In this document: positions 1 to 10,162 of the stretch, in pieces
How positions within the stretch are numbered: the stretch's first letter is position 1
How the letters are laid out: every line of letters begins with the position of its first letter
Assembly: GCA_018432645.1 (NCBI GenBank)
Contig: JAHDSP010000116.1
Location: 1-10,162 of the forward strand
Origin: Bacteroidales bacterium
GTDB lineage: Bacteria; Bacteroidota; Bacteroidia; Bacteroidales; DTU049
Direction of reading: 5' to 3'
Length of the DNA: 10,162 bases
Notes under the pieces: model-generated
Seen by the model: the letters and a program-made list of their open reading frames with translations, nothing else
What the model was told of the DNA's origin: nothing
Databases searched by the model: none
Program-made: the position numbers and the translations under genes

Positions 1-123
1 AAAGGGTTGTACTATAAAAGAACGGAGGAACAATATATCACAAAAGCAACTATCATTTTCTTGTTTACACTAAGCGAGTTAAAAAGAAAAAGAGTTCCTC
101 AAAAGTCGCTAAAACAGTGTTAA
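1..123 (+). CDS. Possible C-terminal tail of an upstream gene (partial)
   Basis: An uninterrupted frame runs from the first base of the window to a TAA at 121-123, giving 40 codons with no internal ATG. The predicted tail has a hydrophobic stretch (around IIFLF) followed by a basic segment (LKRKRVPQKS). It looks more like coding than random AT-rich sequence. I do not recognise the family. The frame stops 32 bases before the recombinase start, a spacing that would suit an upstream gene in the same element. It may equally be a chance open frame, since AT-rich DNA of this length can stay open by accident. No promoter for the recombinase is evident between the stop and position 155. Confidence 0.3.
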   Translation, partial: KGLYYKRTEEQYITKATIIFLFTLSELKRKRVPQKSLKQC

Positions 124-155
124 ATCAAGAGAATATTGCTGAAAGGAGGTAAACA

Positions 156-1985
156 ATGAATACTAAGCTGACTATCCTCTATGAGAGGTTAAGCCGAGAA
201 GACGAACGAGAAACAGAAAGCATCTCCATTGAAAATCAAAAGGCATTTTTAGAAGATTATGCAACCCAAAACGGATTTACAAACTTACTCCACTTAACAG
301 ATGATGGATGGAGTGGAACGAGGTGGGATAGACCAAGTTATCTAAGACTTATTGAAGAAGTTGAGCGTGGAAATGTAGCAAACTGCATAGTCAAAGATAT
401 GTCAAGGATTGGACGTGACCACTTGCGTGTAGGACTTCTGTTAGAGCAGTTTAGAGAGAGTGGGGTTCGCTTTATTGCTGTTAATGATAATGTCGATACT
501 GACAAGGGAATGGACGATTTTACACCCTTTAGAAATATCATAAATGAATGGGTAGCAAGAGATACAAGTCGAAAAATACGTACCATCTTTAACGCAAGAA
601 CAGCACAAGGAAAGCACGTTACAGGTGCATTGCCCTATGGCTATCTACACGACCCTAACGACCGTCAAAATTGGCTTTTGGATGAAGTGGCTGCACCAAT
701 AGTCAAACGCATTTATAAGAGCATTATCGAGGGTAAAACAATAGCTAAAATTGCAGAGGAATTGACCAAAGAAAAAGTTCTTTGTCCTAATGCTCACTGG
801 CAAAATATAAATGAAGCTACAAGTAAGGGTAGACCGAGTGCAGACCCATATAAATGGTCGTCTGCTACTATTGTCACAATAACAGCCAAGCAAGAATATA
901 TGGGTTGGAAAGTGCTAAACAAGACCACAAAAGAAAATTATAAGGCAAAACGAAAGCCTACTCCGAAAGAAGATCTAATCATCTTCAAAGATATGCACCC
1001 AGTCATCATTGATGAAGAAATGTGGAATGTTGTACAAAGGCTTAGAGAAACCAAACGAAGTACAAGTAAACTTGATGGAAAACCAAATCCGTTAACTGGA
1101 GTATTGTATTGTGCTGATTGTGGGCAAAAAATGTATCACAAAAAAGGTAGTACAGGTAGAGAAAATCAACCACATCATGAATATGTGTGTTCAAGTTATA
1201 GGCACTACTCACGCACTTGCACTTGCCACTATATCCGAGTGCCAGTTGTAGAAGATTTAATACTTAGAACGATACAGCAAGTTAGCAAATATGTAAATGA
1301 AAATGAAGAAGAATTTATCGCAAAAGTCCATGAAAATGCAGTCATCATAGGAGAAGAAACCATAAAGGCAAATCGTAAAAAGATAACAACTTCAAAACGT
1401 AGACGAGAGGAAATAAGTGGCTTAGTAAAAAAACTTTATGAAACCTATGCAACAGGAAAAATCTCCGAAGAACACTTTACGGAACTGATTAATGCTTATT
1501 CAAATGAACAACAAAATATTGATGCTGAAACAGAACTATTAAATGCTGAAATCAAAAAATTCAATACAGAAAGCGTGAAAGCTGATAAGTTTATAGACCT
1601 TGTAAAAAGGCATACAGAACTTGCAGAGTTTACTCCACTTCTACTCAATGAATTTATTGAAAAAGTTGTTGTCTATGAGCCAGTAAAAGAAAATGGAAAA
1701 CGAAATCAAAGGGTTGATATTTATCTTAATTTCATAGGGCAGTTTACACATCCAATAACAGAAGAACTACCACAAGAACAACCTAAAAAAGGTTCAAGAG
1801 GTAGAAAATTACGTCACGAAATGACAGAGGAAGAAATACAAAAAGAACGTGAACGTGACAGAGAGCGTTATGCAAGAAAGGTGGCTGATAAAAAGGCAAA
1901 AGAACAAGCTGAGAGATTAGCAATTTTGCAAGGCACAAAATATGAGATTAAAATAAGTGAAGAACAAATCAATAAAGGAGCGTGA
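156..1985 (+). CDS. Large serine recombinase (TnpX/TndX-type site-specific recombinase)
   Basis: This 609-residue protein probably excises and inserts the element through a covalent phosphoserine intermediate. Residues 6 to about 150 form the resolvase domain. The motif YERLSRED carries the likely nucleophile Ser13 and catalytic Arg11, and SRIGRD supplies Arg84 and Arg87. A recombinase domain follows (about 157-300). Next come a zinc ribbon (Cys319, Cys322, Cys345 and Cys355 or Cys357) and a long charged helical region (about 400-475), the usual coiled coil of large serine integrases. The C-terminus (about 545-590) is a strongly charged Arg/Lys/Glu tail. The length lies between TndX (about 530) and TnpX (about 700). 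A strong AAAGGAGG site just upstream of the ATG supports this start. TnpV follows after a 5-base gap, which fits Tn4451-type organisation. All key catalytic residues are present, so activity is likely. The target site and element ends are not evident. Confidence 0.95.
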   Translation: MNTKLTILYERLSREDERETESISIENQKAFLEDYATQNGFTNLLHLTDDGWSGTRWDRPSYLRLIEEVERGNVANCIVKDMSRIGRDHLRVGLLLEQFRESGVRFIAVNDNVDTDKGMDDFTPFRNIINEWVARDTSRKIRTIFNARTAQGKHVTGALPYGYLHDPNDRQNWLLDEVAAPIVKRIYKSIIEGKTIAKIAEELTKEKVLCPNAHWQNINEATSKGRPSADPYKWSSATIVTITAKQEYMGWKVLNKTTKENYKAKRKPTPKEDLIIFKDMHPVIIDEEMWNVVQRLRETKRSTSKLDGKPNPLTGVLYCADCGQKMYHKKGSTGRENQPHHEYVCSSYRHYSRTCTCHYIRVPVVEDLILRTIQQVSKYVNENEEEFIAKVHENAVIIGEETIKANRKKITTSKRRREEISGLVKKLYETYATGKISEEHFTELINAYSNEQQNIDAETELLNAEIKKFNTESVKADKFIDLVKRHTELAEFTPLLLNEFIEKVVVYEPVKENGKRNQRVDIYLNFIGQFTHPITEELPQEQPKKGSRGRKLRHEMTEEEIQKERERDRERYARKVADKKAKEQAERLAILQGTKYEIKISEEQINKGA

Positions 1986-1990
1986 GCTAA

Positions 1991-2380
1991 ATGGCACAAA
2001 GCATATTTGAAAAAAATGGTGGCAAGTACATCAAGGTTGGTGATTACTATGTCCCAGACTTAGGGCAGTTTGATGAAGATACCGAGCCAGTAGATGAAAG
2101 AGTTATCGGCAAATACGGAAGCCTTCGCCGAACATTTTTAGAAGAACATAGACCTGCAATTTATACAAAACTACTTTACAGTTTTGAACTTGATACACAC
2201 TTAAAAGATGTCAACGAAGAAGCACAAAACCTAATTGATAAACTTCTACCCCAGTATAAAAAACAGCAAGGTGTTACCGAAGAATTAAAGGCACAAAATC
2301 AGCTACTTTGGGTAGGAAAAGTAAATAACATTATCGCACAAATTGAAGAAATCATATACAGAGAAATTGTATATGTATAA
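1991..2380 (+). CDS. tnpV: Transposon-encoded protein TnpV
   Basis: This 129-residue protein resembles TnpV, named from Tn4451 and common beside large serine recombinases in Firmicutes elements. The N-terminus repeats aromatic and glycine residues (FEKNGGKYIKVGDYYVPD). The family-like segment GKYGSLRRTFLEEHRP follows, and the rest is helical with a C-terminal charged helix. There is no signal peptide or membrane segment. Its biochemical role is not established; a small accessory or regulatory DNA-binding role in recombination is only a guess. It starts five bases after the recombinase stop, and its AAAGGAG site lies inside the end of the recombinase gene, so the two are probably co-transcribed and translationally linked. 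A terminator follows directly, which suggests that the recombinase-tnpV pair forms one unit. Confidence 0.85.
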   Translation: MAQSIFEKNGGKYIKVGDYYVPDLGQFDEDTEPVDERVIGKYGSLRRTFLEEHRPAIYTKLLYSFELDTHLKDVNEEAQNLIDKLLPQYKKQQGVTEELKAQNQLLWVGKVNNIIAQIEEIIYREIVYV

Positions 2381-2390
2381 CTTAGGATTT

Positions 2391-2425
2391 AAGACGGAGC
2401 AAGTAATATTGTTTCCGTCTTTTTT
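2391..2425 (+). terminator. Rho-independent terminator after tnpV
   Basis: AAGACGGA (2391-2398) pairs perfectly with TCCGTCTT (2414-2421). The stem extends inward with GCAA (2399-2402) against TTGT (2409-2412) around one bulged base, leaving a 6-base loop. A run of six T (2420-2425) follows. It sits 10 bases after the tnpV stop and separates the recombination genes from the mobilization genes. Confidence 0.85.
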
Positions 2426-2469
2426 CATATAAAAAATCAAATCAAAAACTTAAAAAGGAGCATTTAATT

Positions 2470-2778
2470 ATGGCAAAGAAAACACTGGTAGAGCAAATTA
2501 AAGATACGCAAATCGAACTTGAGAAAGTGAGAGCAGAAAAGAAACAAAAGGAAAATCAATTAGCTAAAATCCAAAAGCAAGAACGAGAAAAAGAACACAG
2601 AGTACGCACACGCAGACTAATTCAAAAAGGTGCAGTTTTGGAAAGTGTTGATCCGAACCTTGCACAGCTTAATGAAGAACAATTAAAGGCTTGTTTAAGA
2701 GAAATCTTTTCAAACCACACAGTGCAAGAGGTGGCAAAAAATCATCTACTATCACAGCAAGAGGTAGACACGCCATAA
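2470..2778 (+). CDS. DUF3847-type small coiled-coil protein of the mobilization region
   Basis: This 102-residue, highly charged protein has a strongly helical N-terminal half (about residues 8-50, heptad-rich with many Lys, Glu and Gln) that should form a coiled coil. A basic stretch (RVRTRRLIQKG) and a short helical C-terminal part follow. It matches my recollection of the DUF3847 family, usually encoded just upstream of MobA/MobL relaxases in Gram-positive mobile elements. The function of the family is not established. Its position next to oriT and its basic, coiled-coil character make an accessory oriT-binding role plausible, but that is inference. An AAAAGGAG site about 9 bases before the ATG supports the start. 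Its stop codon lies immediately before the first oriT hairpin. Confidence 0.8.
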   Translation: MAKKTLVEQIKDTQIELEKVRAEKKQKENQLAKIQKQEREKEHRVRTRRLIQKGAVLESVDPNLAQLNEEQLKACLREIFSNHTVQEVAKNHLLSQQEVDTP

Positions 2779-2780
2779 CT

Positions 2781-2822
2781 CCCTTGTTAGCAAGGGCGCA
2801 CTTATACACCATTAAAATGGTG
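2781..2822 (-). other. Origin of transfer (oriT) core with nic site and flanking inverted repeats
   Basis: Read on the minus strand, 2806-2792 is TATAAGTGCGCCCTT. This matches, from memory, the nic core shared by RSF1010-like and pSK41/pGO1-like MOBQ systems. By analogy the nick falls between G and C in GTGCG/CCCTT, that is between 2797 and 2796. Directly 5' of it on that strand is an inverted repeat, CACCAT (2807-2812) with ATGGTG (2817-2822), in the place such systems carry the relaxase-binding hairpin. On the other side, CCCTTG (2781-2786) and CAAGGG (2791-2796) form a second perfect 6-bp hairpin with a 4-base loop that abuts the nick. The site lies between the DUF3847-type gene and the relaxase gene, the usual place. 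With this polarity the left part of the window would enter the recipient first and the relaxase gene last. The exact nick is inferred. Confidence 0.85.
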
Positions 2823-2841
2823 CGTGCGTTCTGCGAAGCAA

Positions 2842-2860
2842 TGGGGAGCTACTCTCCCCA
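2842..2860. repeat. Inverted repeat in the oriT-relaxase intergenic region
   Basis: TGGGGAG (2842-2848) and CTCCCCA (2854-2860) form a perfect 7-bp, GC-rich hairpin with a 5-base loop. No T-run follows, so it does not look like a terminator. It may be a protein-binding or DNA-folding element of the transfer origin, or an mRNA structure in the relaxase leader. Confidence 0.6.
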
Positions 2861-2887
2861 AACCCCTTGTGTACTTCACGAAACTGG

Positions 2888-2907
2888 CTACACCTTGCGA
2901 GGTGTAG
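2888..2907. repeat. Inverted repeat upstream of the relaxase gene
   Basis: CTACACCT (2888-2895) and AGGTGTAG (2900-2907) form a perfect 8-bp hairpin with a TGCG loop. It ends about 27 bases before the relaxase ribosome binding site. The following bases (TCATTTTCAT) make a weak T-tract, so attenuation of relaxase transcription is possible but not clear. It could also be a binding site used to autoregulate the mob operon. Confidence 0.6.
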
Positions 2908-2946
2908 TCATTTTCATAAAGTTTAATAAAATCGAAAGGAGCAGTT

Positions 2947-4401
2947 ATGGCAATATTTCATTGTGATATTAAAGTAATAAGTCGAGGGAAAAGCAAGTCT
3001 GCTGTTGCTTCATCTGCATATCGAAGTGGCACGAAAATGACAAACGAATATGATGGAGAAATTCACGACTACACACGCAAAGGTGGTATTCATTCCAGTG
3101 CAATTCTTTTGCCCTCTCACGCACCTAAAGAGTATGCAGACCGTAGCACTTTATGGAACGCTGTCGAGATGATAGAAAAGCAACATAACTCACAGCTTGC
3201 AAGAGAAATTGAAGTATCAATACCGAAAGAAATACCCTCACATCTATGGCAAAGAATGATGATAGATTTTTGCAATACTAACTTTGTAAAGCAAGGTATG
3301 ATTGCTGATTTATCCGTTCATAACAAAGACCCTAATAACCCACATTGTCACATAATGTTGACTATGCGACCTATTAAAGAAAATGGTAAATGGGGAGCAA
3401 AATCACGCAAGGAATATGTACTTGATGATAATGGTAATCGCATTAAACTTGCAAGTGGAAATTGGAAGTCAACAAAGGTTGATACAATGGATTGGAACAG
3501 CCAAGACAACGCAGAACTATGGCGAACAAACTGGAGTGAGCATTGCAATCTCTATCTTGAAAATTTAGGGCATACAGAACGCATAGATCACCGAAGTTAT
3601 GAAAGGCAAGGCATTGATAAAATTCCTCAAATTCATTTAGGTGTTTCAGCTTCACAAATGGAGCAGAAAGGCATTAAGACGGATAGAGGAAATCGCAATC
3701 GAGAAATCTTAAACGACAATAAGCAAATGAAGATTTTAAGGGCGAGAATAACAAGGCTGATGAAGTGGCAACGAGAGCTTGAAGCACAGCCACTTGATAT
3801 AGCGAAAGCAGAGATAAAGACTTCTGTTTTAGGTAAACTATATGCAAATAAAGATGTAGTAAAAAATCAAAATAAGACTGTTCGTAACCTCAAAGCAGAT
3901 AACAAAGTTCACAACTTTATGCAGACACATAACATTGAAACAATGGCTGATTTTAGTGCAAAGGTTGTTGACCTTAATACAAGTTTTTACGAACTCAAAA
4001 AGCTATCTAAGGCAAACAATACTGCCATTGCTGATATGGATAATAGGCTTAAACTTTGGAGCGAATACGAGCCATTAAAGAAATATATTTTCAAGTATAA
4101 TGAGTTAAATTCTAAAGATAAAAAAGCTTTTATCACAAAGTATCGTGACAAGTTTAATCGTTATGATGAACTGCAAAAAGTATGGAAAGAAATTGAAGCC
4201 ACCGAGGGTAAAGTTACACCTAAACAGTGGCAAAAAACACACTCTACACTCATTGATGATAACAAACTTTGCGAATGGAAAATGAAAGCCTTGAAAGAAG
4301 AAATCGGCACAGCAGAGCGAATACAAAAGTTGCTTGATGAAGAAGTTAAAGAGCAAAACCAAGCAAAAGATAAAAAGCGTGTAACGGAAAATGAGTTATA
4401 A
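2947..4401 (+). CDS. MobA/MobL-family relaxase (MOBQ type)
   Basis: This 484-residue relaxase should nick one strand at oriT, stay covalently attached, and pilot the strand through a conjugation channel supplied by another element. The N-terminal relaxase domain covers about residues 1-230. Tyr25 in SSAYRSG is the likely catalytic tyrosine. The metal-binding histidine motif HNKDPNNPHCH supplies His125, His133 and His135. The family segment DHRSYERQGID (from residue 214) is followed by a conserved P..HLG. The remaining half is helical and charged with no recognisable helicase or primase domain. AAAGGAG at 2935-2941 sets the start, six bases before the ATG. The oriT core lies about 125 bases upstream. 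The length and motifs suggest an intact gene. No coupling protein or type IV secretion gene is visible, so it probably mobilizes with outside help. Confidence 0.93.
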   Translation: MAIFHCDIKVISRGKSKSAVASSAYRSGTKMTNEYDGEIHDYTRKGGIHSSAILLPSHAPKEYADRSTLWNAVEMIEKQHNSQLAREIEVSIPKEIPSHLWQRMMIDFCNTNFVKQGMIADLSVHNKDPNNPHCHIMLTMRPIKENGKWGAKSRKEYVLDDNGNRIKLASGNWKSTKVDTMDWNSQDNAELWRTNWSEHCNLYLENLGHTERIDHRSYERQGIDKIPQIHLGVSASQMEQKGIKTDRGNRNREILNDNKQMKILRARITRLMKWQRELEAQPLDIAKAEIKTSVLGKLYANKDVVKNQNKTVRNLKADNKVHNFMQTHNIETMADFSAKVVDLNTSFYELKKLSKANNTAIADMDNRLKLWSEYEPLKKYIFKYNELNSKDKKAFITKYRDKFNRYDELQKVWKEIEATEGKVTPKQWQKTHSTLIDDNKLCEWKMKALKEEIGTAERIQKLLDEEVKEQNQAKDKKRVTENEL

Positions 4402-4430
4402 AAACATACAAATATTGGGTAATTTAGCAA

Positions 4431-4460
4431 TAGACTTTTTGTATAAATGCATGATATAAT
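4431..4460 (+). promoter_or_regulatory. Promoter driving a short orphan transcript
   Basis: A perfect TATAAT (4455-4460) is preceded by TG one base upstream, an extended -10 arrangement. TAGACT (4431-4436) lies 18 bases further upstream and is a fair -35. Transcription would start near 4467. Only about 75 bases separate that point from a strong terminator, and the intervening sequence contains no credible ORF with a ribosome binding site. Confidence 0.6.
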
Positions 4461-4466
4461 AGTTAA

Positions 4467-4541
4467 ATCAAAACCACATCATTAAGATGTGAGATTATTT
4501 ATATACACTTTAGCAGGCTTGAAATATAGCCTGCTATTTTT
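4467..4541 (+). ncRNA. Candidate small RNA or leader RNA of about 75 nt
   Basis: Between the predicted start near 4467 and the T-run ending at 4541 the transcript would contain two hairpins. The first pairs CACATC (4475-4480) with GATGTG (4486-4491) around a 5-base loop. The second is the terminator at 4511-4541. An ATG in the first hairpin is followed at once by TGA, so no leader peptide is evident. It could be a regulatory small RNA, or the transcription attenuator of a gene that once occupied this cargo site, or simply a promoter-like sequence followed by the terminator of the mob operon. No alternative antiterminator pairing of the terminator arm was found. The RNA is inferred from DNA signals only. 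Confidence 0.35.
4511..4541 (+). terminator. Rho-independent terminator upstream of the tetR operon
   Basis: TAGCAGGC (4511-4518) pairs perfectly with GCCTGCTA (4529-4536), with one further T-A pair inward and an 8-base loop, followed by five T (4537-4541). It would stop transcripts from the relaxase gene and from the short promoter at 4431-4460, insulating the cargo operon. Confidence 0.85.
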
Positions 4542-4576
4542 ATATTGCAATGAATTTAAAAAAATGTCGAAAACTA

Positions 4577-4592
4577 TTGACCGATTGGTCAA
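4577..4592. promoter_or_regulatory. TetR-type operator 1
   Basis: TTGACCGATTGGTCAA is a 16-bp imperfect palindrome whose six-base arms TTGACC and GGTCAA are perfect inverted repeats around GATT. It covers the -35 of the operon promoter. Palindromes of this size just upstream of a tetR gene are typical autoregulatory operators. Confidence 0.85.
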
Positions 4593-4605
4593 TGTGTGTT
4601 ATTAT
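4577..4605 (+). promoter_or_regulatory. Promoter of the tetR-kinase-like-antiporter operon
   Basis: TTGACC (4577-4582) and TATTAT (4600-4605) each match the vegetative consensus at five of six positions and are spaced by 17 bases. The -35 lies inside the first palindromic operator. The predicted start near 4612 lies inside the second. Bound repressor would therefore block both polymerase binding and start-site melting. Confidence 0.75.
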
Positions 4606-4609
4606 ATTA

Positions 4610-4625
4610 TTGACCAATCGGTCAA
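4610..4625. promoter_or_regulatory. TetR-type operator 2
   Basis: TTGACCAATCGGTCAA is the exact reverse complement of operator 1, with its centre 33 bp downstream, close to three helical turns. It covers the predicted transcription start and lies just before the tetR ribosome binding site. The spacing would place two repressor dimers on roughly the same face of the DNA. Confidence 0.85.
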
Positions 4626-4646
4626 AAATATAATAAGGAGGTTTTT

Positions 4647-5255
4647 ATGAAAGTAAAAGATCCGACATCAGAAACAGCTATAAAGCTAATCCAAAGTGCA
4701 ACAGAGTTATTTAATGATTTTGGATATACTGGAACATCTATAAATGATATAGCAAAAAAATCTAAACTTTCAAAAGGTATACTGTACCATTATTTTCAAA
4801 GCAAAGATGATGTGTATTTGTTTTGTTTAAGCGAATGTATAAATAATTTTGTTGATTTTATGGAGAGAAATATATCAAAGATATCACTTAGTAAAGAAAC
4901 AATGATTAGGGTTGTAGAGCTAAGATTTGTTTTTTTCGATGAAAATCCACAATATAAGAATTTGTTTCACAACATCATATCCGGTAAACCAACACACCTT
5001 TCAAAAGAAATATCAGAAATACGACAGGTTTTAACAGAAAATAATATTAGCTGGATTAAGTTAATTCTAACAGAAATTAATTTAGGTAAAGATGTATTAG
5101 AGAGTGATGTTAGTTTGTTTATTTCTATACTGCAAAATAGTTCAACATTTTTGCTGGACGCTGAAAGTGATAAGAAATACCGGCAAGATATGATAAATTC
5201 GATAGTTAGACTAACAATCATTTTTTTAAATGGATTAAGAGAGGATTTAATTTAA
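4647..5255 (+). CDS. TetR/AcrR-family transcriptional repressor
   Basis: This 202-residue protein has the usual TetR-family length. The N-terminal DNA-binding domain covers about residues 10-57. Its helix-turn-helix is seen in TSINDIAKKSKLSKGILYHYF (about 30-50), followed by QSKDDVY, the typical end of the domain. The C-terminal part is helical and variable and should form the ligand-binding and dimerization domain; its ligand cannot be predicted. AAGGAGG at 4635-4641 sets the start. It is the first gene of the cargo operon, and two matched palindromic operators sit in its own promoter, so it probably represses itself, the kinase-like gene and the antiporter until a ligand releases it. This is a classic layout for inducible efflux or stress resistance. 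Confidence 0.93.
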   Translation: MKVKDPTSETAIKLIQSATELFNDFGYTGTSINDIAKKSKLSKGILYHYFQSKDDVYLFCLSECINNFVDFMERNISKISLSKETMIRVVELRFVFFDENPQYKNLFHNIISGKPTHLSKEISEIRQVLTENNISWIKLILTEINLGKDVLESDVSLFISILQNSSTFLLDAESDKKYRQDMINSIVRLTIIFLNGLREDLI

Positions 5256-5267
5256 AGGAGATTTTTA

Positions 5268-5879
5268 ATGAAATATATAATTACAATAGGTAGAGAACAT
5301 GGAAGTGGTGGTAGAGAGATTGGTTATAAATTAGCCGAAGAATTTGGTATACCATTTTATGATAGCGAGCTTGTAAACAGAATTTGTAAAGAAAAAGGAA
5401 TATCTGAAGAGTTTTTTTCTGAATATGATGAGAAAAAAGGCAGTTTGATTTATTCGCTGATTATGGATTTATATGCAAAAGAAGCTAACGTAATCGAAAA
5501 TACTTCTTTAGAGCAAAAGTTATTCAATATTCAAAGAGATGTAATAAATGACATTGCAGATGAGGGTGCTTGCGTAATTGTTGGTAGATGTGCTGATCAC
5601 ATTTTGAAGGATAGAGAAAACACAATAAGTATTTTTATTTCAGCCGACACAGATAGTAAAATTCAGCGTGTTAGTACTAGGAATAAACTTAATGCACAAG
5701 ATGCTAAAAAGAAAATGAAATTCACTGATAATAAGCGTAAAAATTACTACAACTATTATACAAGCAAAAAATGGGGTTCTTCATATTGTTATGATTTTTG
5801 TATTAAGAGTAACAAACTTGGGATAGAACAAACAGTTTCTACGTTAAAAAATATGATTGATTTTTTGGAAAGAGGATAA
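5268..5879 (+). CDS. Cytidylate-kinase-like family protein
   Basis: This 203-residue protein resembles the cytidylate kinase-like family (the Cytidylate_kin2 type), a P-loop nucleoside monophosphate kinase relative. The N-terminus IITIGREHGSGGREIG (residues 4-19) is the family's atypical phosphate-binding loop, which lacks the canonical GK[ST] lysine. LAEEFGIPFYDSELV follows. A second conserved segment, CVIVGRCADHIL (102-113), and the lid-like stretch NKRKNYYNYYTSKKWG (155-170) also fit the family. There is no membrane segment or signal peptide. Substrate and activity are unproven; a regulatory or sensing role is possible. AAAGGAG overlaps the tetR stop codon, with 12 bases between the genes, and the antiporter follows one base after its own stop. 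It is clearly part of the same operon, which suggests functional coupling to transport (inference). Confidence 0.85.
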   Translation: MKYIITIGREHGSGGREIGYKLAEEFGIPFYDSELVNRICKEKGISEEFFSEYDEKKGSLIYSLIMDLYAKEANVIENTSLEQKLFNIQRDVINDIADEGACVIVGRCADHILKDRENTISIFISADTDSKIQRVSTRNKLNAQDAKKKMKFTDNKRKNYYNYYTSKKWGSSYCYDFCIKSNKLGIEQTVSTLKNMIDFLERG

Positions 5880-5880
5880 A

Positions 5881-7113
5881 ATGGAAATTTTGATTGGAAT
5901 ATTAAAAATTATATTAGCTATTGTGCTTGCAACAATAGTTGGAAAAGGTGTTGCAAAATTAAAACTACCTGCAATTTTAGGATGGTTAATTACAGGTATG
6001 ATTATCGGACCTTATGCTTTTGGGCTGTTAGATAATGAATTGTTAAATGCGCAATGGTATAAAAATATTAGCCACTTTTTTGAATGTGCAGTAGGGTTGA
6101 TGTTTGCAAAAGAACTGATATTTAAAAAGCTAAAAGCATACGGAAAGCAAATTGTCACAATAACAATATTTGAGTCTGTGGGAACGTTTGTTGTAGTTTC
6201 AGCAGTGTTCGCTGTCGTGTGTCATATTTTAAATATGCCACTATACTTATCAATAATATTTGGTGGAATTGCACTTGCCACTGCACCAGCACCAGCACTT
6301 TCAATCGTCAGTGGATTTAAAACAAAAGGTCCTATCACCAATTCTCTTATTCCTATTGCAATGATTGATGATGTAGTTGCAATTATAGTATTTTTTACGG
6401 TAAATTCTTACATAGCTTCATTAGGATCTACTGAATCTGGATCTATAATAGGAGTTATATTGGTTTCTGTCGCACTACCAATCGTTTTAGGAGCTACTAT
6501 AGGATTTGTTATCTCACTTGTTTTAAAAAGAGATTTAAAGAAAAATCAGATTATGTTTGCAACAATAACATCCCTAGTCGCAACTTTTGCAATTTCATAT
6601 TTTATTGATAATTTTATTTTACCCGAACCATCTTTAAATTATATGTTTGTGGGTATGGCTGCATTTACAACTGTTGCAAATTTAATTTCTGAGCATAAGA
6701 TGGAGCAAGTTGTAAACAGCTGTACACCGATTGTTGGAATAGGTTTTATTATAATGATAATGAATCTAGGAGCACCTCTTGATTATCGTCTTATATTAAG
6801 TGCAGGTTCGCTTACAGCTATTTATATTTTAAGCAGAGCTTTCGGAAAATATTTTAGCACTTATTTAGGTGCCAAGGTTTCAAAAGCAGATGATAATGTG
6901 AAAAAATATTTAGGGTTTGTACTTTTACCTCATTCTGGAGTATCTCTTGTGTTTACTGGTATGGCTGTTACAACTCTTAATACTTTTGATAGCGAATCTG
7001 CTGTAATTATTCAAGGTACAATCGCAGCCGCTGCTGTTATCAATGAAGTCTTTGCCGTAATTTTAGCGAAAAAAGGGTTTGACTGGGGTGGAGAAATCGG
7101 AACTAAAAAGTAA
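5881..7113 (+). CDS. CPA-family cation:proton antiporter (probable Na+/H+ or K+/H+ exchanger)
   Basis: This 410-residue integral membrane protein is hydrophobic throughout, with roughly a dozen predicted membrane segments. It should exchange a monovalent cation for protons across the cytoplasmic membrane. AILGWLITGMIIGPYAFGLL (31-50) is the typical second-helix segment of CPA2 exchangers. ATAPAPALSIV (133-143) lies in the first crossover region. IPIAMIDDVVAIIVFF (157-172) carries the Asp163-Asp164 pair, the family's ion-binding motif and usually a sign of electrogenic exchange. Near the C-terminus, SRAFGKY (318-324) supplies a conserved basic residue, and LPHSGVSLVF (349-358) matches the family. 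There is no Trk/RCK nucleotide-binding domain at the end. The ATG at 5881 is chosen because it follows AGAGGA at good spacing, one base after the kinase-like stop; a TTG at 5857 would overlap that gene. Ion specificity cannot be read from sequence, and weak-acid or cationic drug transport is also possible. Confidence 0.9.
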   Translation: MEILIGILKIILAIVLATIVGKGVAKLKLPAILGWLITGMIIGPYAFGLLDNELLNAQWYKNISHFFECAVGLMFAKELIFKKLKAYGKQIVTITIFESVGTFVVVSAVFAVVCHILNMPLYLSIIFGGIALATAPAPALSIVSGFKTKGPITNSLIPIAMIDDVVAIIVFFTVNSYIASLGSTESGSIIGVILVSVALPIVLGATIGFVISLVLKRDLKKNQIMFATITSLVATFAISYFIDNFILPEPSLNYMFVGMAAFTTVANLISEHKMEQVVNSCTPIVGIGFIIMIMNLGAPLDYRLILSAGSLTAIYILSRAFGKYFSTYLGAKVSKADDNVKKYLGFVLLPHSGVSLVFTGMAVTTLNTFDSESAVIIQGTIAAAAVINEVFAVILAKKGFDWGGEIGTKK

Positions 7114-7213
7114 TTAACGCAGTATTAGTTTTAGAAATTTATAAAATAATTTATATCGTTCATTATGAGCATTTGACGAAACGCAAAATACAAAAAATTG
7201 AATAGCAACCCTA

Positions 7214-7249
7214 ATATGACGGATCAAAAATGATTCGTCATATTTTTTT
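7214..7249 (+). terminator. Strong Rho-independent terminator after the antiporter operon
   Basis: ATATGACGGATCA (7214-7226) pairs with TGATTCGTCATAT (7231-7243) along 13 bp, with one G-T wobble and an AAAA loop. Seven T (7243-7249) follow. It lies about 100 bases beyond the antiporter stop and only 30 bases before the tyrosine recombinase start. The 7114-7213 stretch before it is AT-rich, without a convincing gene. Confidence 0.9.
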
Positions 7250-7278
7250 ACCCAAAAATAAAAATGGAGGAAATAAAG

Positions 7279-8232
7279 ATGTTAAAAAATTACAAGAGTT
7301 TTGAACTATTGGAGCAGTATTTAAGCTACCTCACAGTTATTAAAGGTCGCTCTATCAACACCGTTATCGAGTATCGCACAGATGTGCTGATGTTCTTTGA
7401 ATTTCTTTGTAATAAGCGAAATATGGAGCGTGAAAAGTATGATTTAAGTATGATAGATAATGAGTTTGTGAACAGCATTACCCTTAATGATATGTATGCT
7501 TTTATCTCCCATTGCCAAACTGAAAGCAAGGCAAGCGCTGGCACAAGGGCAAGAAAAATCGTATCTATCCGTCAATTTTGGAAGTATCTAAAAAATAAGG
7601 CTCGTGTCATTGATAACAATGTCGCAGAGGATTTAGAAACACCCAAAATCCCTAAACGCATACCCAAGTATCTAACTCTTGAAGAAAGCGTTAGGCTACT
7701 CATTGCAAGTGAGTTTTCAGCGAGAAACCATTGTATCATCACGATATTTCTTAATTGTGCGTTAAGGCTGTCAGAACTCACAAGCCTTGATGTAGGGCAA
7801 GTATCGTCAGATACATTGCAAGTTATCGGCAAAGGTAATAAGGAACGTAAGATATTTCTAACCAGTGCCACGAAAAAGGCACTTGAAAATTGGTTAAAGG
7901 AGCGTGAGCATATAGACAATGCCACCACTGCCCTTTTCATCACAAAGCAAGGGCAACGAATGACAGGGCGAAGCGTTCAAGATGTGGTTAAAAGGTGCAT
8001 TAAACTAGCCAATTTAGACCACAAAAACATATCGGTACACAAATTAAGACACACAGCAGCCACCTTGATGTACCAGTATGGCAAGGTAGATATTCGCTCA
8101 TTACAACAGATTTTAGGACACGAAAGCATTGCTACAATCGAGATTTACACGCATATTGACGAAAGTCAATTAAGAACTGCTGTAAACTCTAACCCTTTAT
8201 CGGGAATGTATGGCAATGTTATGAAAGGATAA
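7279..8232 (+). CDS. Tyrosine recombinase, XerC/XerD-like integrase
   Basis: This 317-residue protein cuts and rejoins DNA through a phosphotyrosine. The N-terminal core-binding (SAM-like) domain covers about residues 8-108. The catalytic domain follows with all expected residues: Arg163 in CALRLSEL, a Lys within GKGNKER (184-190), His254 and Arg257 in HKLRH, His281 in LGHES, and Tyr290 in IEIYTH. The length is typical for Xer and small integrases. The ATG at 7279 is preferred over one at 7264 because the GGAGG at 7266-7270 serves it and would lie inside the longer version. The replisome organizer starts four bases after its stop, so the gene belongs to the replication operon. It could resolve multimers of the replicating circle, or act as a second integrase. 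A terminator lies just upstream and I see no clear promoter. Confidence 0.9.
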   Translation: MLKNYKSFELLEQYLSYLTVIKGRSINTVIEYRTDVLMFFEFLCNKRNMEREKYDLSMIDNEFVNSITLNDMYAFISHCQTESKASAGTRARKIVSIRQFWKYLKNKARVIDNNVAEDLETPKIPKRIPKYLTLEESVRLLIASEFSARNHCIITIFLNCALRLSELTSLDVGQVSSDTLQVIGKGNKERKIFLTSATKKALENWLKEREHIDNATTALFITKQGQRMTGRSVQDVVKRCIKLANLDHKNISVHKLRHTAATLMYQYGKVDIRSLQQILGHESIATIEIYTHIDESQLRTAVNSNPLSGMYGNVMKG

Positions 8233-8236
8233 GACA

Positions 8237-9004
8237 ATGGCAACCAATAAAAAATATTACTTCCTCAAATTTAAAGAGGATTTTTTCAGAGATGAAACAA
8301 TTATTTTACTTGAAGATATTAAAGACGGATTTTTGTTTTCAAATATCTTGCTTAAAATGTATCTTCTATCCCTCAAACACGAGGGGCAATTACTGTTATC
8401 ACAAGGAGTAGCCTATACTCCACAAATGATAGCAACACTCACTAACCACCAAGTAGGCACAGTGGAACGAGCCTTGCAGATATTTATGCAATTAAGGCTT
8501 GTTGAGGAGCTGACAGACGGAACTTTGTTTATGACTAACATTCAATCTCTTATTGGCAAGTCATCAACAGAAGCCGAGCGAAAACAGAATGAACGAGCAA
8601 AACTCAAGGAAAATAGCCTACTTCCAAGTGCTAAGGGTGGACAAATGTCCGAACTTTGTCCGAAAGTGTCCCCAAATCGTCCACCAGAGTATAGAGATAA
8701 GAGTATAGAGATTAGAGATAAGAGTATAGAGAGTGAGAGTAAAGAGGACACACCCACCCACTTTTTAGGCAAATATCAAAATATTTCTCTATCTGAAACT
8801 GAACTTGAACAGCTTAAAACAGAGCTTCCCTCACTCTATCAATCCTATATCGAGAAATTAAGTGAATATATGGCAAGCACTGGCAAGACCTACAACAGCC
8901 ACATTGCCACCATACGCAAATGGGCAAAGGAAGATAGCGAAAAGAACACTAAGACCAACAACGCACCACGCAATTATGATTATGACGGAACTAAGAGCCT
9001 ATAA
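8237..9004 (+). CDS. Phage-type replisome organizer / replication initiator
   Basis: This 255-residue protein resembles phage replisome organizers, which bind origin repeats and recruit a helicase loader. The N-terminal domain (about 1-115) begins YYFLKFKEDFFRDETIILLED and includes a winged-helix-like part (QMIATLTNHQVGTVERALQIFMQLRLVEEL). A hydrophilic linker follows (about 115-175), containing an internal repeat, RDKSIEIRDKSIES. The C-terminal part (about 180-235) has a conserved-looking helix-rich segment (LPSLYQSYIEKLSEYMASTGKTYNSH) ending in a KWAKED motif common in these proteins. The AAAGGA site sits in the end of the recombinase gene, indicating coupled translation. The DnaC-like loader gene follows 18 bases downstream. 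The linker repeats at DNA level are a possible origin. The family call rests on recalled similarity and on context. Confidence 0.82.
   Translation: MATNKKYYFLKFKEDFFRDETIILLEDIKDGFLFSNILLKMYLLSLKHEGQLLLSQGVAYTPQMIATLTNHQVGTVERALQIFMQLRLVEELTDGTLFMTNIQSLIGKSSTEAERKQNERAKLKENSLLPSAKGGQMSELCPKVSPNRPPEYRDKSIEIRDKSIESESKEDTPTHFLGKYQNISLSETELEQLKTELPSLYQSYIEKLSEYMASTGKTYNSHIATIRKWAKEDSEKNTKTNNAPRNYDYDGTKSL
8686..8733 (+). repeat. Direct repeats in the replisome organizer gene, candidate replication origin
   Basis: Two identical 20-bp copies, TAGAGATAAGAGTATAGAGA, start at 8692 and 8713, so the period is 21 bp, about two helical turns. The inner 12-mer AGAGTATAGAGA occurs three times (from 8686, 8700 and 8721). 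The tract is purine-rich and encodes the RDKSIEIRDKSIES linker. In several Gram-positive phages the origin consists of repeats inside the replisome organizer gene, so these may be binding sites for the protein encoded around them. They could also be simple low-complexity coding sequence. Confidence 0.6.
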
Positions 9005-9022
9005 ACGAAAGGAAGAACAAAG

Positions 9023-9862
9023 ATGATGAATACCATTAAGAACATAGCCAAAACAGCAGAGAGAGCCATTAACGAGCCGACAGACTACTTAAACGAGGTT
9101 GACAACCTAATGTATTGTGGTAAATGCCACACACCCAAGCAGAAACGCTTTGATAAGCCTTTTCTTGATGAAATAGATACAGTGCCTATCCCTTGCCATT
9201 GCAGAGCCTTAGAACTGGAGCAAGAGCGTGAGGAACGAGAGCAAATGGAACACTTCCAAAAAGTTAAGGAGCTTCGAGAACGAGGATTAAAAGACAAGAA
9301 GATGTTAGAGTGGAATTTTAAAAACGATACCACAAACAGCAAGCAGATTGATGTTGCAAAGCGATATGTCGATAACTTCGACAAGGCTAAGGCTGAAAAC
9401 ACTGGTTTGTTATTGTGGGGAGATGTTGGAACTGGCAAATCCTTTGTTGCTGGCTGTATTGCAAATGCACTCATTGAAAAAGAAATCCCAGTTGTAATGA
9501 CAAACTTTGCAATTATCCTTGCTGATATGATGAACTTGAAAATTGACAAGAACGAGTATATCAAGGGCTTAAACAGAAACAGCCTACTCATCATTGATGA
9601 TTTTGGTATGGAACGTGACACTCCTTTTGCCTTAGAACAGATTTACAACATCATAGACAGCCGATACACAGCTTCTAAGCCTTTAATCGTGACAACTAAC
9701 CTAAACCACGCAGAAATGCTTAAAACGGATATACAGACCGATTATAGACGCATATATGACCGAGTGTTAGAGATGTGTGTGCCTATCTACTTCGAGGGCG
9801 AGAGCAAACGCACCCAAAACGCAAAACAGAAACTTGAAAAATTAAAAGAAATCTTAGGCTAA
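9023..9862 (+). CDS. DnaC-like helicase loader ATPase
   Basis: This 279-residue AAA+ ATPase of the DnaC/IstB type probably loads the host replicative helicase at the element's origin together with the upstream organizer. The N-terminus has a small cysteine cluster (Cys32, Cys35, Cys58, Cys60) that likely binds zinc, then a charged helix (about 62-95). The ATPase core shows Walker A GDVGTGKS (133-140), Walker B LLIIDD (188-193) and a sensor-like LIVTTNLNHAEM (221-232). An arginine-rich YRRIYDRVLEMC (241-252) is typical of DnaC relatives. A GAAAGGA site at 9007-9013 serves the ATG at 9023; the adjacent ATG at 9026 is an alternative. The absence of a neighbouring istA-type transposase and the pairing with a replisome organizer favour a loader over a transposition helper. 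The terminator stem begins in its stop codon. Confidence 0.92.
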   Translation: MMNTIKNIAKTAERAINEPTDYLNEVDNLMYCGKCHTPKQKRFDKPFLDEIDTVPIPCHCRALELEQEREEREQMEHFQKVKELRERGLKDKKMLEWNFKNDTTNSKQIDVAKRYVDNFDKAKAENTGLLLWGDVGTGKSFVAGCIANALIEKEIPVVMTNFAIILADMMNLKIDKNEYIKGLNRNSLLIIDDFGMERDTPFALEQIYNIIDSRYTASKPLIVTTNLNHAEMLKTDIQTDYRRIYDRVLEMCVPIYFEGESKRTQNAKQKLEKLKEILG

Positions 9863-9904
9863 TGGCTTTTACCCCCTTAAAAAATCAGTAGAAGCCATTT
9901 TTTT
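9861..9904 (+). terminator. Rho-independent terminator after the helicase loader gene
   Basis: AATGGCTTTTAC (9861-9872) pairs with GTAGAAGCCATT (9888-9899) over 12 bp with one wobble pair, followed by T through 9904. The left arm starts inside the stop codon of the preceding gene. It ends the recombinase-organizer-loader operon and leaves tnpW about 28 bases downstream. Confidence 0.88.
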
Positions 9905-9932
9905 ATGCCATTATTTAGAAAAGGAGCAGACT

Positions 9933-10115
9933 ATGGAAAACAATTTAAACGAAAATAATGCAGTAGAAACCACTACCCCACAAGGAACATTTACTCACAA
10001 GATAGGCAATACAACCTATGTTGTAGGTGTTCACTTTAGCAAGACAAGTAAAGAAACTATTGATGATAAGATGAAAAGGCTTATTTTAAGCGATTTAGAG
10101 CATATCAAACCTTGA
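9933..10115 (+). CDS. tnpW: Transposon-encoded protein TnpW
   Basis: This 60-residue protein resembles TnpW, the small conserved protein named from Tn4451 and found in many related elements. The core FTHKIGNTTYVVGVHFSKTSKETIDDKMKRLI (about 20-51) is the recognisable part; the first 18 residues are polar and Asn-rich. There is no membrane segment or known catalytic motif, and the family's function is not established. An AAAAGGAG site at 9919-9926 sets the start. A terminator separates it from the helicase loader, and no clear promoter is seen in the short gap, so it may depend on read-through. Confidence 0.85.
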   Translation: MENNLNENNAVETTTPQGTFTHKIGNTTYVVGVHFSKTSKETIDDKMKRLILSDLEHIKP

Positions 10116-10143
10116 AATATTTCCTGTAATAAAAAAGTTCTTC

Positions 10144-10149
10144 TTGACA
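10144..10149 (+). promoter_or_regulatory. Possible -35 element at the right edge
   Basis: A perfect TTGACA lies 28 bases after the tnpW stop. A matching -10 would fall beyond the window at about 10167, so the promoter cannot be confirmed. If real it would drive a further gene to the right. The 10116-10162 stretch holds no other feature. Confidence 0.3.
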
Positions 10150-10162
10150 AAAACCCGAAGGG

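Follow-up and report, generated by a model that had tools for sequence, protein, structure and literature searches.

Contig JAHDSP010000116.1, deposited under a Bacteroidales bacterium and analysed here whole as the window, spans 10162 bases with eleven plus-strand genes and is a practically complete integrative mobilizable element (IME). Its cargo is a cassette of three co-directional open reading frames (ORFs) encoding a TetR-family repressor, a kinase-like protein of the Cytidylate_kin2 family, and a member of the cation/proton antiporter (CPA) superfamily with a DD motif. We lean toward reading this cassette as inducible stress cargo, in which TetR would repress the antiporter and the kinase-like protein would act as a subunit that tunes it. 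As judged from its genes, the cassette appears to be a TetR-linked CPA antiport operon furnished with a Kef-like soluble partner from another protein family. An earlier note on this DNA had already proposed that the mobile element's cargo is a TetR operon bearing its own operators, a proposal supported by the gene content, the operators, and an insertion of the same element in Fusibacter tunisiensis DSM 24436 (locus L007). That note knew of no described resistance system of this kind, and the open-licence literature that we searched likewise held neither a description of the operon nor a characterised match to the cassette. A search of defence families gave no matches, and neither did phage and viral contig searches; plasmids yielded only two distant protein matches, at 23-27% identity, and DNA matches covering at most 8% of the query.

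Structure of the cassette and its control region

The TetR gene (4647..5255, plus strand; 202 amino acids) matches PF00440 (TetR_N) at 52.3 bits against a cutoff of 24. It is followed on the same strand by the kinase-like gene (5268..5879; 203 amino acids), whose match to PF13189 (Cytidylate_kin2) covers 176 of 176 domain positions at 193.1 bits (cutoff 28), and by the antiporter gene (5881..7113; 410 amino acids), which matches PF00999 at 63.5 bits (cutoff 26.2). The intergenic gaps are 12 nucleotides between the TetR and kinase-like genes and one nucleotide between the kinase-like and antiporter genes. The ORF list offers an alternative antiporter start, TTG 5857, inside the kinase gene; ATG 5881 was adopted because it fits the family alignment.

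Upstream lies a promoter-like sequence, TTGACC-17-TATTAT (4577..4605, plus strand), which is a consensus match only, such sites being barely enriched in the region (19 versus 16.6 in shuffles). Two putative TetR operators, assigned by motif match and by the occurrence of the motif across the family, bracket it: operator 1, TTGACCGATTGGTCAA (4577..4592), covers the -35 element, and operator 2, TTGACCAATCGGTCAA (4610..4625), lies just past the -10 element. These are the sole matches to TWGACN6GTCWA in the window, and two matches occurred in 0 of 200 shuffles. The cassette ends at a predicted intrinsic terminator hairpin (7213..7244, plus strand) that folds at -16.6 kcal/mol, with a z-score of -5.9. 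The self-contained operon of the earlier note, with its gaps of 12 and 1, its operators around the promoter and its strong terminator, is thus present in every part.

Linkage of the repressor to the antiporter

A genome scan confirmed an antiporter relative in 392 stretches, from which the best 80 loci were retained by antiporter similarity alone; they include L007, the element itself. TetR is adjacent to and co-directional with 76 of the 81 antiporter genes in these loci, directly upstream in 40 and directly downstream in 36; the five antiporter genes with no TetR nearby are in L009, L027, L057, L058, and L081. When the neighbours in the 80 loci were clustered, TetR alone held a fixed place, and no other conserved neighbour was found. 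ABC exporters, so labelled from a Pfam match on one member, formed the next-largest cluster (18 of 80 loci) and were rejected as part of the unit, since only 4 loci had them no more than 1.5 kb from the antiporter. Eight antiporter carriers (at 1e-60), six near-full-length and two partial, were present in a separate draw of 291 genomes. TetR adjoins five of the six near-full-length genes, F. tunisiensis included; no TetR was found in the 4.2 kb available for the sixth (L116, a kinase fusion) or beside the two partial genes. The low frequency and changing surroundings of the antiporter operon suggest that it is often lost or moved. In L026:756-9215, from a Butyricicoccus faecihominis record, two identical antiporters lie in opposite orientation, each with its own TetR, the TetR genes being about 4.7 kb apart.

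The operators are a family trait of TetR-linked antiporter operons. In stretches of up to 200 bases upstream, 52 of the 76 TetR-linked operons carry an exact TWGAC-N6-GTCWA and 65 carry it with no more than one mismatch; 41 have at least two copies. The motif was derived from these same regions, so the counts are fitted; the controls were nonetheless far lower, with shuffles of 75 regions giving a mean of 0.065 exact matches (largest 2) and 1.26 near matches (largest 5), and 633 upstream regions of other ORFs giving one exact match and 12 near ones. We discarded a proposed correspondence between operator variant and TetR position (TWGAC[CT] for the upstream type, TAGACG for the downstream type): the gene order switches once on the tree, and a single change amounts to one event, which makes the correspondence uninformative. 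In L155, L157, L158, and L161, the same dual operator precedes ABC-transporter ATPase genes, and TetR was not found in the available stretch; these sites may hint at wider TetR regulons.

The repressors also share a cysteine. All 74 aligned antiporter-linked TetRs have Cys60, as do all 28 homologs, 15 of which are 98-100% identical to the window's TetR; three unrelated TetR-like proteins from these loci all lack it. Two linked TetRs were left outside the alignment for their length: L031 has Cys60 and L075 is gapped there. Such invariance suggests thiol sensing.

The antiporter

All 152 antiporter sequences have both aspartates of the DD motif, D163 and D164. In the same alignment, gaps account for every absence of Thr134, Pro136, Pro138, Arg319, Lys323, and Glu389, which are otherwise invariant. 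PF00999 is the sole Pfam match on the protein at 1e-3, with no KTN/RCK domain found by Pfam on its C-terminus, and a crude hydropathy scan gave 10 segments, where the NapA fold has 13 transmembrane helices. According to an excerpt of a paper on KefC (PMC11150392), DD is the motif of NapA and QD that of KefC, which is electroneutral. Since the cassette protein has DD, it is likely to be an exchanger of the DD type rather than of the KefC type, and electrogenic. The resemblance to NapA would be one of motif alone, because the CPA2 subfamily model TIGR00932 scores 36.8 bits, far under its cutoff of 238.3. A sequence-profile search of solved structures gave NhaP (1e-5) and NHE6 (2e-4) as the best matches, over part of the length, and not NapA. 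Among 59 genomes related to the window's genome and including it, six matched: the genome itself and five at 22-28% identity, with no other close antiporter.

The kinase-like partner

The earlier note had proposed checking whether the kinase-like gene and the antiporter co-occur elsewhere, and they do. Of the 120 homologs listed, the best of 6420, 24 carry PF13189 fused to the C-terminus of the antiporter, and the same fusion occurs in 6 of the best 80 loci and in G176. Close relatives of the separate genes apparently share two further contigs, as judged by equal contig sizes: one of 2733 bases (TetR 70%, kinase 84%, and antiporter 84% identical) and one of 22160 bases (kinase 81% and antiporter 86% identical). 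The association of kinase and antiporter therefore recurs. Mapped on the antiporter tree, the fusion label shows 14 changes, of which starred branches force at least 10; this speaks for repeated gain or loss of the fusion, in whichever direction. In L034:12268-12894, a separate kinase-like gene lies about 5 kb from an unfused antiporter and is not adjacent to it.

By sequence, the closest kin of known structure are PDB 3hdt (6e-37) and 3fdi (5e-35), members of the same family named as a putative kinase and an uncharacterized protein, with no mention of an antiporter in those names. A literature search on the PF13189 accession returned a single unrelated paper. The kinase motif residues are about equally kept in fused (n=25), separate (n=4), and standalone (n=57) sequences, so the domain does not appear to be decaying. 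The canonical position of the Walker A lysine, which we place by a presumed alignment to Cmk, is Gly15 in 86 of 86 sequences, and ordinary kinase activity is uncertain for this reason.

The ancestry of the linked kinases was also considered. In a free tree, whose standalone database rows, one in four of 116, had been selected for their resemblance to the window's kinase, the fused kinases fall in two sets and the window's kinase groups with standalone ones. Independent recruitment of the kinase was dropped as an explanation: approximately unbiased (AU) tests do not reject keeping the linked kinases together in any of several arrangements (p 0.475, 0.572, and 0.576).

Proposed mechanism and alternatives

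The best reading of the operon is probably as a DD-motif antiporter induced through TetR, with a kinase-like protein as its optional regulatory subunit, in a layout like that of KefF and KefC. In the resting state, a TetR dimer would occupy the two operators that bracket the promoter and keep its own operon shut off. An inducer, possibly a thiol-reactive compound acting at Cys60, would free TetR from the operators, and the derepressed operon would then supply an antiporter trading Na+ or K+ against protons, which would reset the pH and ionic composition of the cytoplasm. The kinase-like protein, whose translation immediately precedes that of the antiporter, might bind the antiporter as a soluble nucleotide-responsive subunit and tune its activity, as KefF does with KefC; in other genomes, the same part could be played by the kinase-like domain joined to the antiporter C-terminus. 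A kinase-family subunit is not known to gate any cation/proton antiporter. A bolder version, which we think unlikely, would make the cassette a transmissible Gram-positive counterpart of Kef: a cysteine-sensing TetR and a DD antiporter, the latter gated by a cytidylate-kinase-family protein that senses nucleotides, together answering electrophile or energy stress and spreading among Firmicutes on mobilizable elements.

The KefFC and KefGB systems for glutathione-gated K+/H+ efflux are the closest parallel. An excerpt of a study of them (PMC10224563) describes KefF, a soluble subunit of about 20 kDa whose gene lies 5' of the antiporter gene, as required for full activity and lacking from some species; the cassette likewise pairs a CPA-superfamily antiporter with a soluble partner of about that size, placed just 5' and varying in presence among species. 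The partner here, however, is a PF13189 kinase-like protein and not an oxidoreductase, the antiporter has no detected KTN/RCK domain and bears DD where KefC has QD (PMC11150392, in the excerpt cited above), and the cassette is preceded by a TetR gene with dual operators. With the NapA-type (DD) Na+/H+ antiporters, the cassette protein shares the PF00999 domain and the DD motif, but it differs in its subthreshold TIGR00932 score, in having NhaP and NHE6 as its best solved structures, in its operon with TetR and a kinase-like partner, and in its carriage on a mobile element.

Several observations weigh against a tuned, chemically induced antiporter. The antiporter is unfused in 74 of the best 80 loci, and a separate kinase adjoins it only in L007, the element itself. 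Such kinases are common (54 of 148 genomes), and when kinases were drawn separately and 30 of their loci inspected with an antiporter profile, 29 showed no such antiporter within about 1.5 kb on each side, the sole exception (L124) again being the element itself. The kinase is optional in this operon family; of the earlier note's view of a CPA antiporter in a stress-tolerance cassette, the antiporter with its intact signature residues stands, and the partner is not a constant companion. A single origin of the antiporter-linked kinases is compatible with the AU tests, which leaves repeated recruitment unsupported. Eleven of the 76 operons lack even a near operator match, although the stretches available for L071 and L082 are much shorter than 200 bases. 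The exact dual operator occurs in 9 of 391 genomes, before the antiporter operon in two, ABC-transporter ATPase genes in four, and other TetR genes in three; with other genes behind it in seven of the nine, we rejected it as an exclusive signature of the antiporter. Cys60, finally, could be structural instead.

Ordinary salt and pH homeostasis is a possible alternative, if a doubtful one. The antiporter would then be a Na+(Li+)/H+ exchanger induced by alkaline or sodium stress, without electrophile sensing, and a DD motif like that of the electrogenic NapA-type exchangers fits such a role. The invariant Cys60 in TetR nevertheless points to a chemical inducer, and TetR control is an unusual way to sense Na+.

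We regard as improbable a detoxification pathway in which the kinase-like protein would act enzymatically on a small molecule of its own, with the antiporter exporting that substrate or its product. Pairs of TetR and an efflux protein often concern toxic compounds, the kinase motif residues persist whether the sequence is fused, separate, or standalone, and such kinases are common without an antiporter, all of which agrees with this account. Against it, the DD motif and the other invariant residues of the antiporter are those of cation/proton exchangers, the presumed Walker A lysine position is an invariant Gly, and most of the antiporters are unfused.

Less probable again is a passenger kinase gene, brought by chance and in a single lineage to an operon of TetR and antiporter genes only: its lone adjoining occurrence among the best 80 loci and its place beside standalone kinases in the free tree (an arrangement to which the AU test does not reject the alternative) favour this, but the fusions of the same two protein families, the two contigs that close relatives of both proteins apparently share, the fused form on a different mobile element (L051), and the one-nucleotide spacing all speak against it.

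The preferred account, that of a TetR-repressed antiporter tuned by its kinase-like partner, describes a recurrent operon type, mostly in Firmicutes as labelled in the records, in which a Cys60-bearing TetR stands beside a DD-motif antiporter, in some cases with a kinase-like domain joined or fused to it. If that domain gates the antiporter, PF13189 would gain a concrete role, and ion and pH homeostasis would be traveling on a class of elements that often bears antibiotic resistance (PMC5704250, in the part consulted).

The host element

The IME, of about 10.16 kb, occupies 1..10156 on the plus strand, its ends being inferred from the L007 insertion to within about four bases. L007 matches all 10162 bases of the window with three differences (99.97% identity). 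There (L007:1820-14220) the element interrupts a catalase-peroxidase gene, in which a peroxidase domain was found and which we call katG-like from reading the sequence. Rejoining the L007 flanks, with about 10157 bases removed, restores one 753-codon frame. The dinucleotide CC is common to both element ends in L007, but the interrupted gene reads identically at any of eight neighbouring, equivalent cut points, so CC is a candidate for the 2-bp junction identity of Tn4451-type elements. Because the rejoined flanks restore this frame, the window starts and ends within a few bases of the element ends. The F. tunisiensis strain probably lacks catalase-peroxidase unless a second copy exists. The interrupted gene has no match in the window's genome, and near the window's last base, at 10160, the sequence differs from the L007 flank, which is compatible with another insertion site in that genome. 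The window's genome is rated 7.1% contaminated, and for this reason recent transfer and contamination cannot be told apart as the source of the element there.

Upstream of the cassette, all on the plus strand, domain matches identify a large serine recombinase (156..1985; Resolvase, Recombinase, Zn_ribbon_recom, and DUF4368), TnpV (1991..2380), which we take to be a Tn4451 protein, a DUF3847 protein (2470..2778; 39.2 bits, slightly under the Pfam cutoff of 40), and a MobQ-family relaxase (2947..4401; domain and family match). Downstream, on the same strand, are a XerC-like tyrosine recombinase (7264..8232), a phage replisome organiser N-terminal protein (8237..9004), and a DnaC/IstB-like ATPase (9023..9862), each recognised by a domain match, followed by a small protein of 60 amino acids (9933..10115) with relatives in L174, L175, and L176. 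Between the relaxase gene and the cassette, at 4431-4536, a promoter-like site precedes two hairpins, the second with a T run; this segment looks like a leader or terminator, and an Rfam scan that included it gave no match at the gathering score.

The large serine recombinase, TnpV, and relaxase are shared with the IMEs Tn4451 and Tn4453, as may be the very short direct repeats that, according to an excerpt of PMC5704250, integration leaves behind. Unlike those elements, this one has no chloramphenicol-resistance gene and carries replication-type genes, the XerC-like recombinase, and the antiporter cassette as cargo. A large share of the known members of this class carry antibiotic resistance, as the same excerpt reports, and the earlier note held that related elements often have drug-resistance genes at this very place. 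The comparisons did not bear this out. The nearest related backbone among those compared, L174, runs DUF3847-MobQ-replisome organiser-DnaC-small protein with no match to the cassette or to XerC in between, which marks the interval holding these two as a variable site. No drug-resistance gene was seen there in five relatives, whose genes were inspected without a Pfam scan. A similar cassette does stand behind a relaxase gene in L051, a different element in which the relaxase is followed by TetR and its dual operators, a fusion of antiporter and kinase, and a serine recombinase. Among the 79 loci other than L007, only L051 and L019 (a serine-recombinase piece) hold kin of this element's genes, and no such element is visible within the available stretch of the rest.

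The XerC-like recombinase proved too common (282 of 291 genomes) to serve as a guide to kindred elements. Its relatives elsewhere reach 61-66% identity, with two copies in L121, and it has no match in the L174 backbone; the nearest kin of the relaxase are at 41-42% identity.

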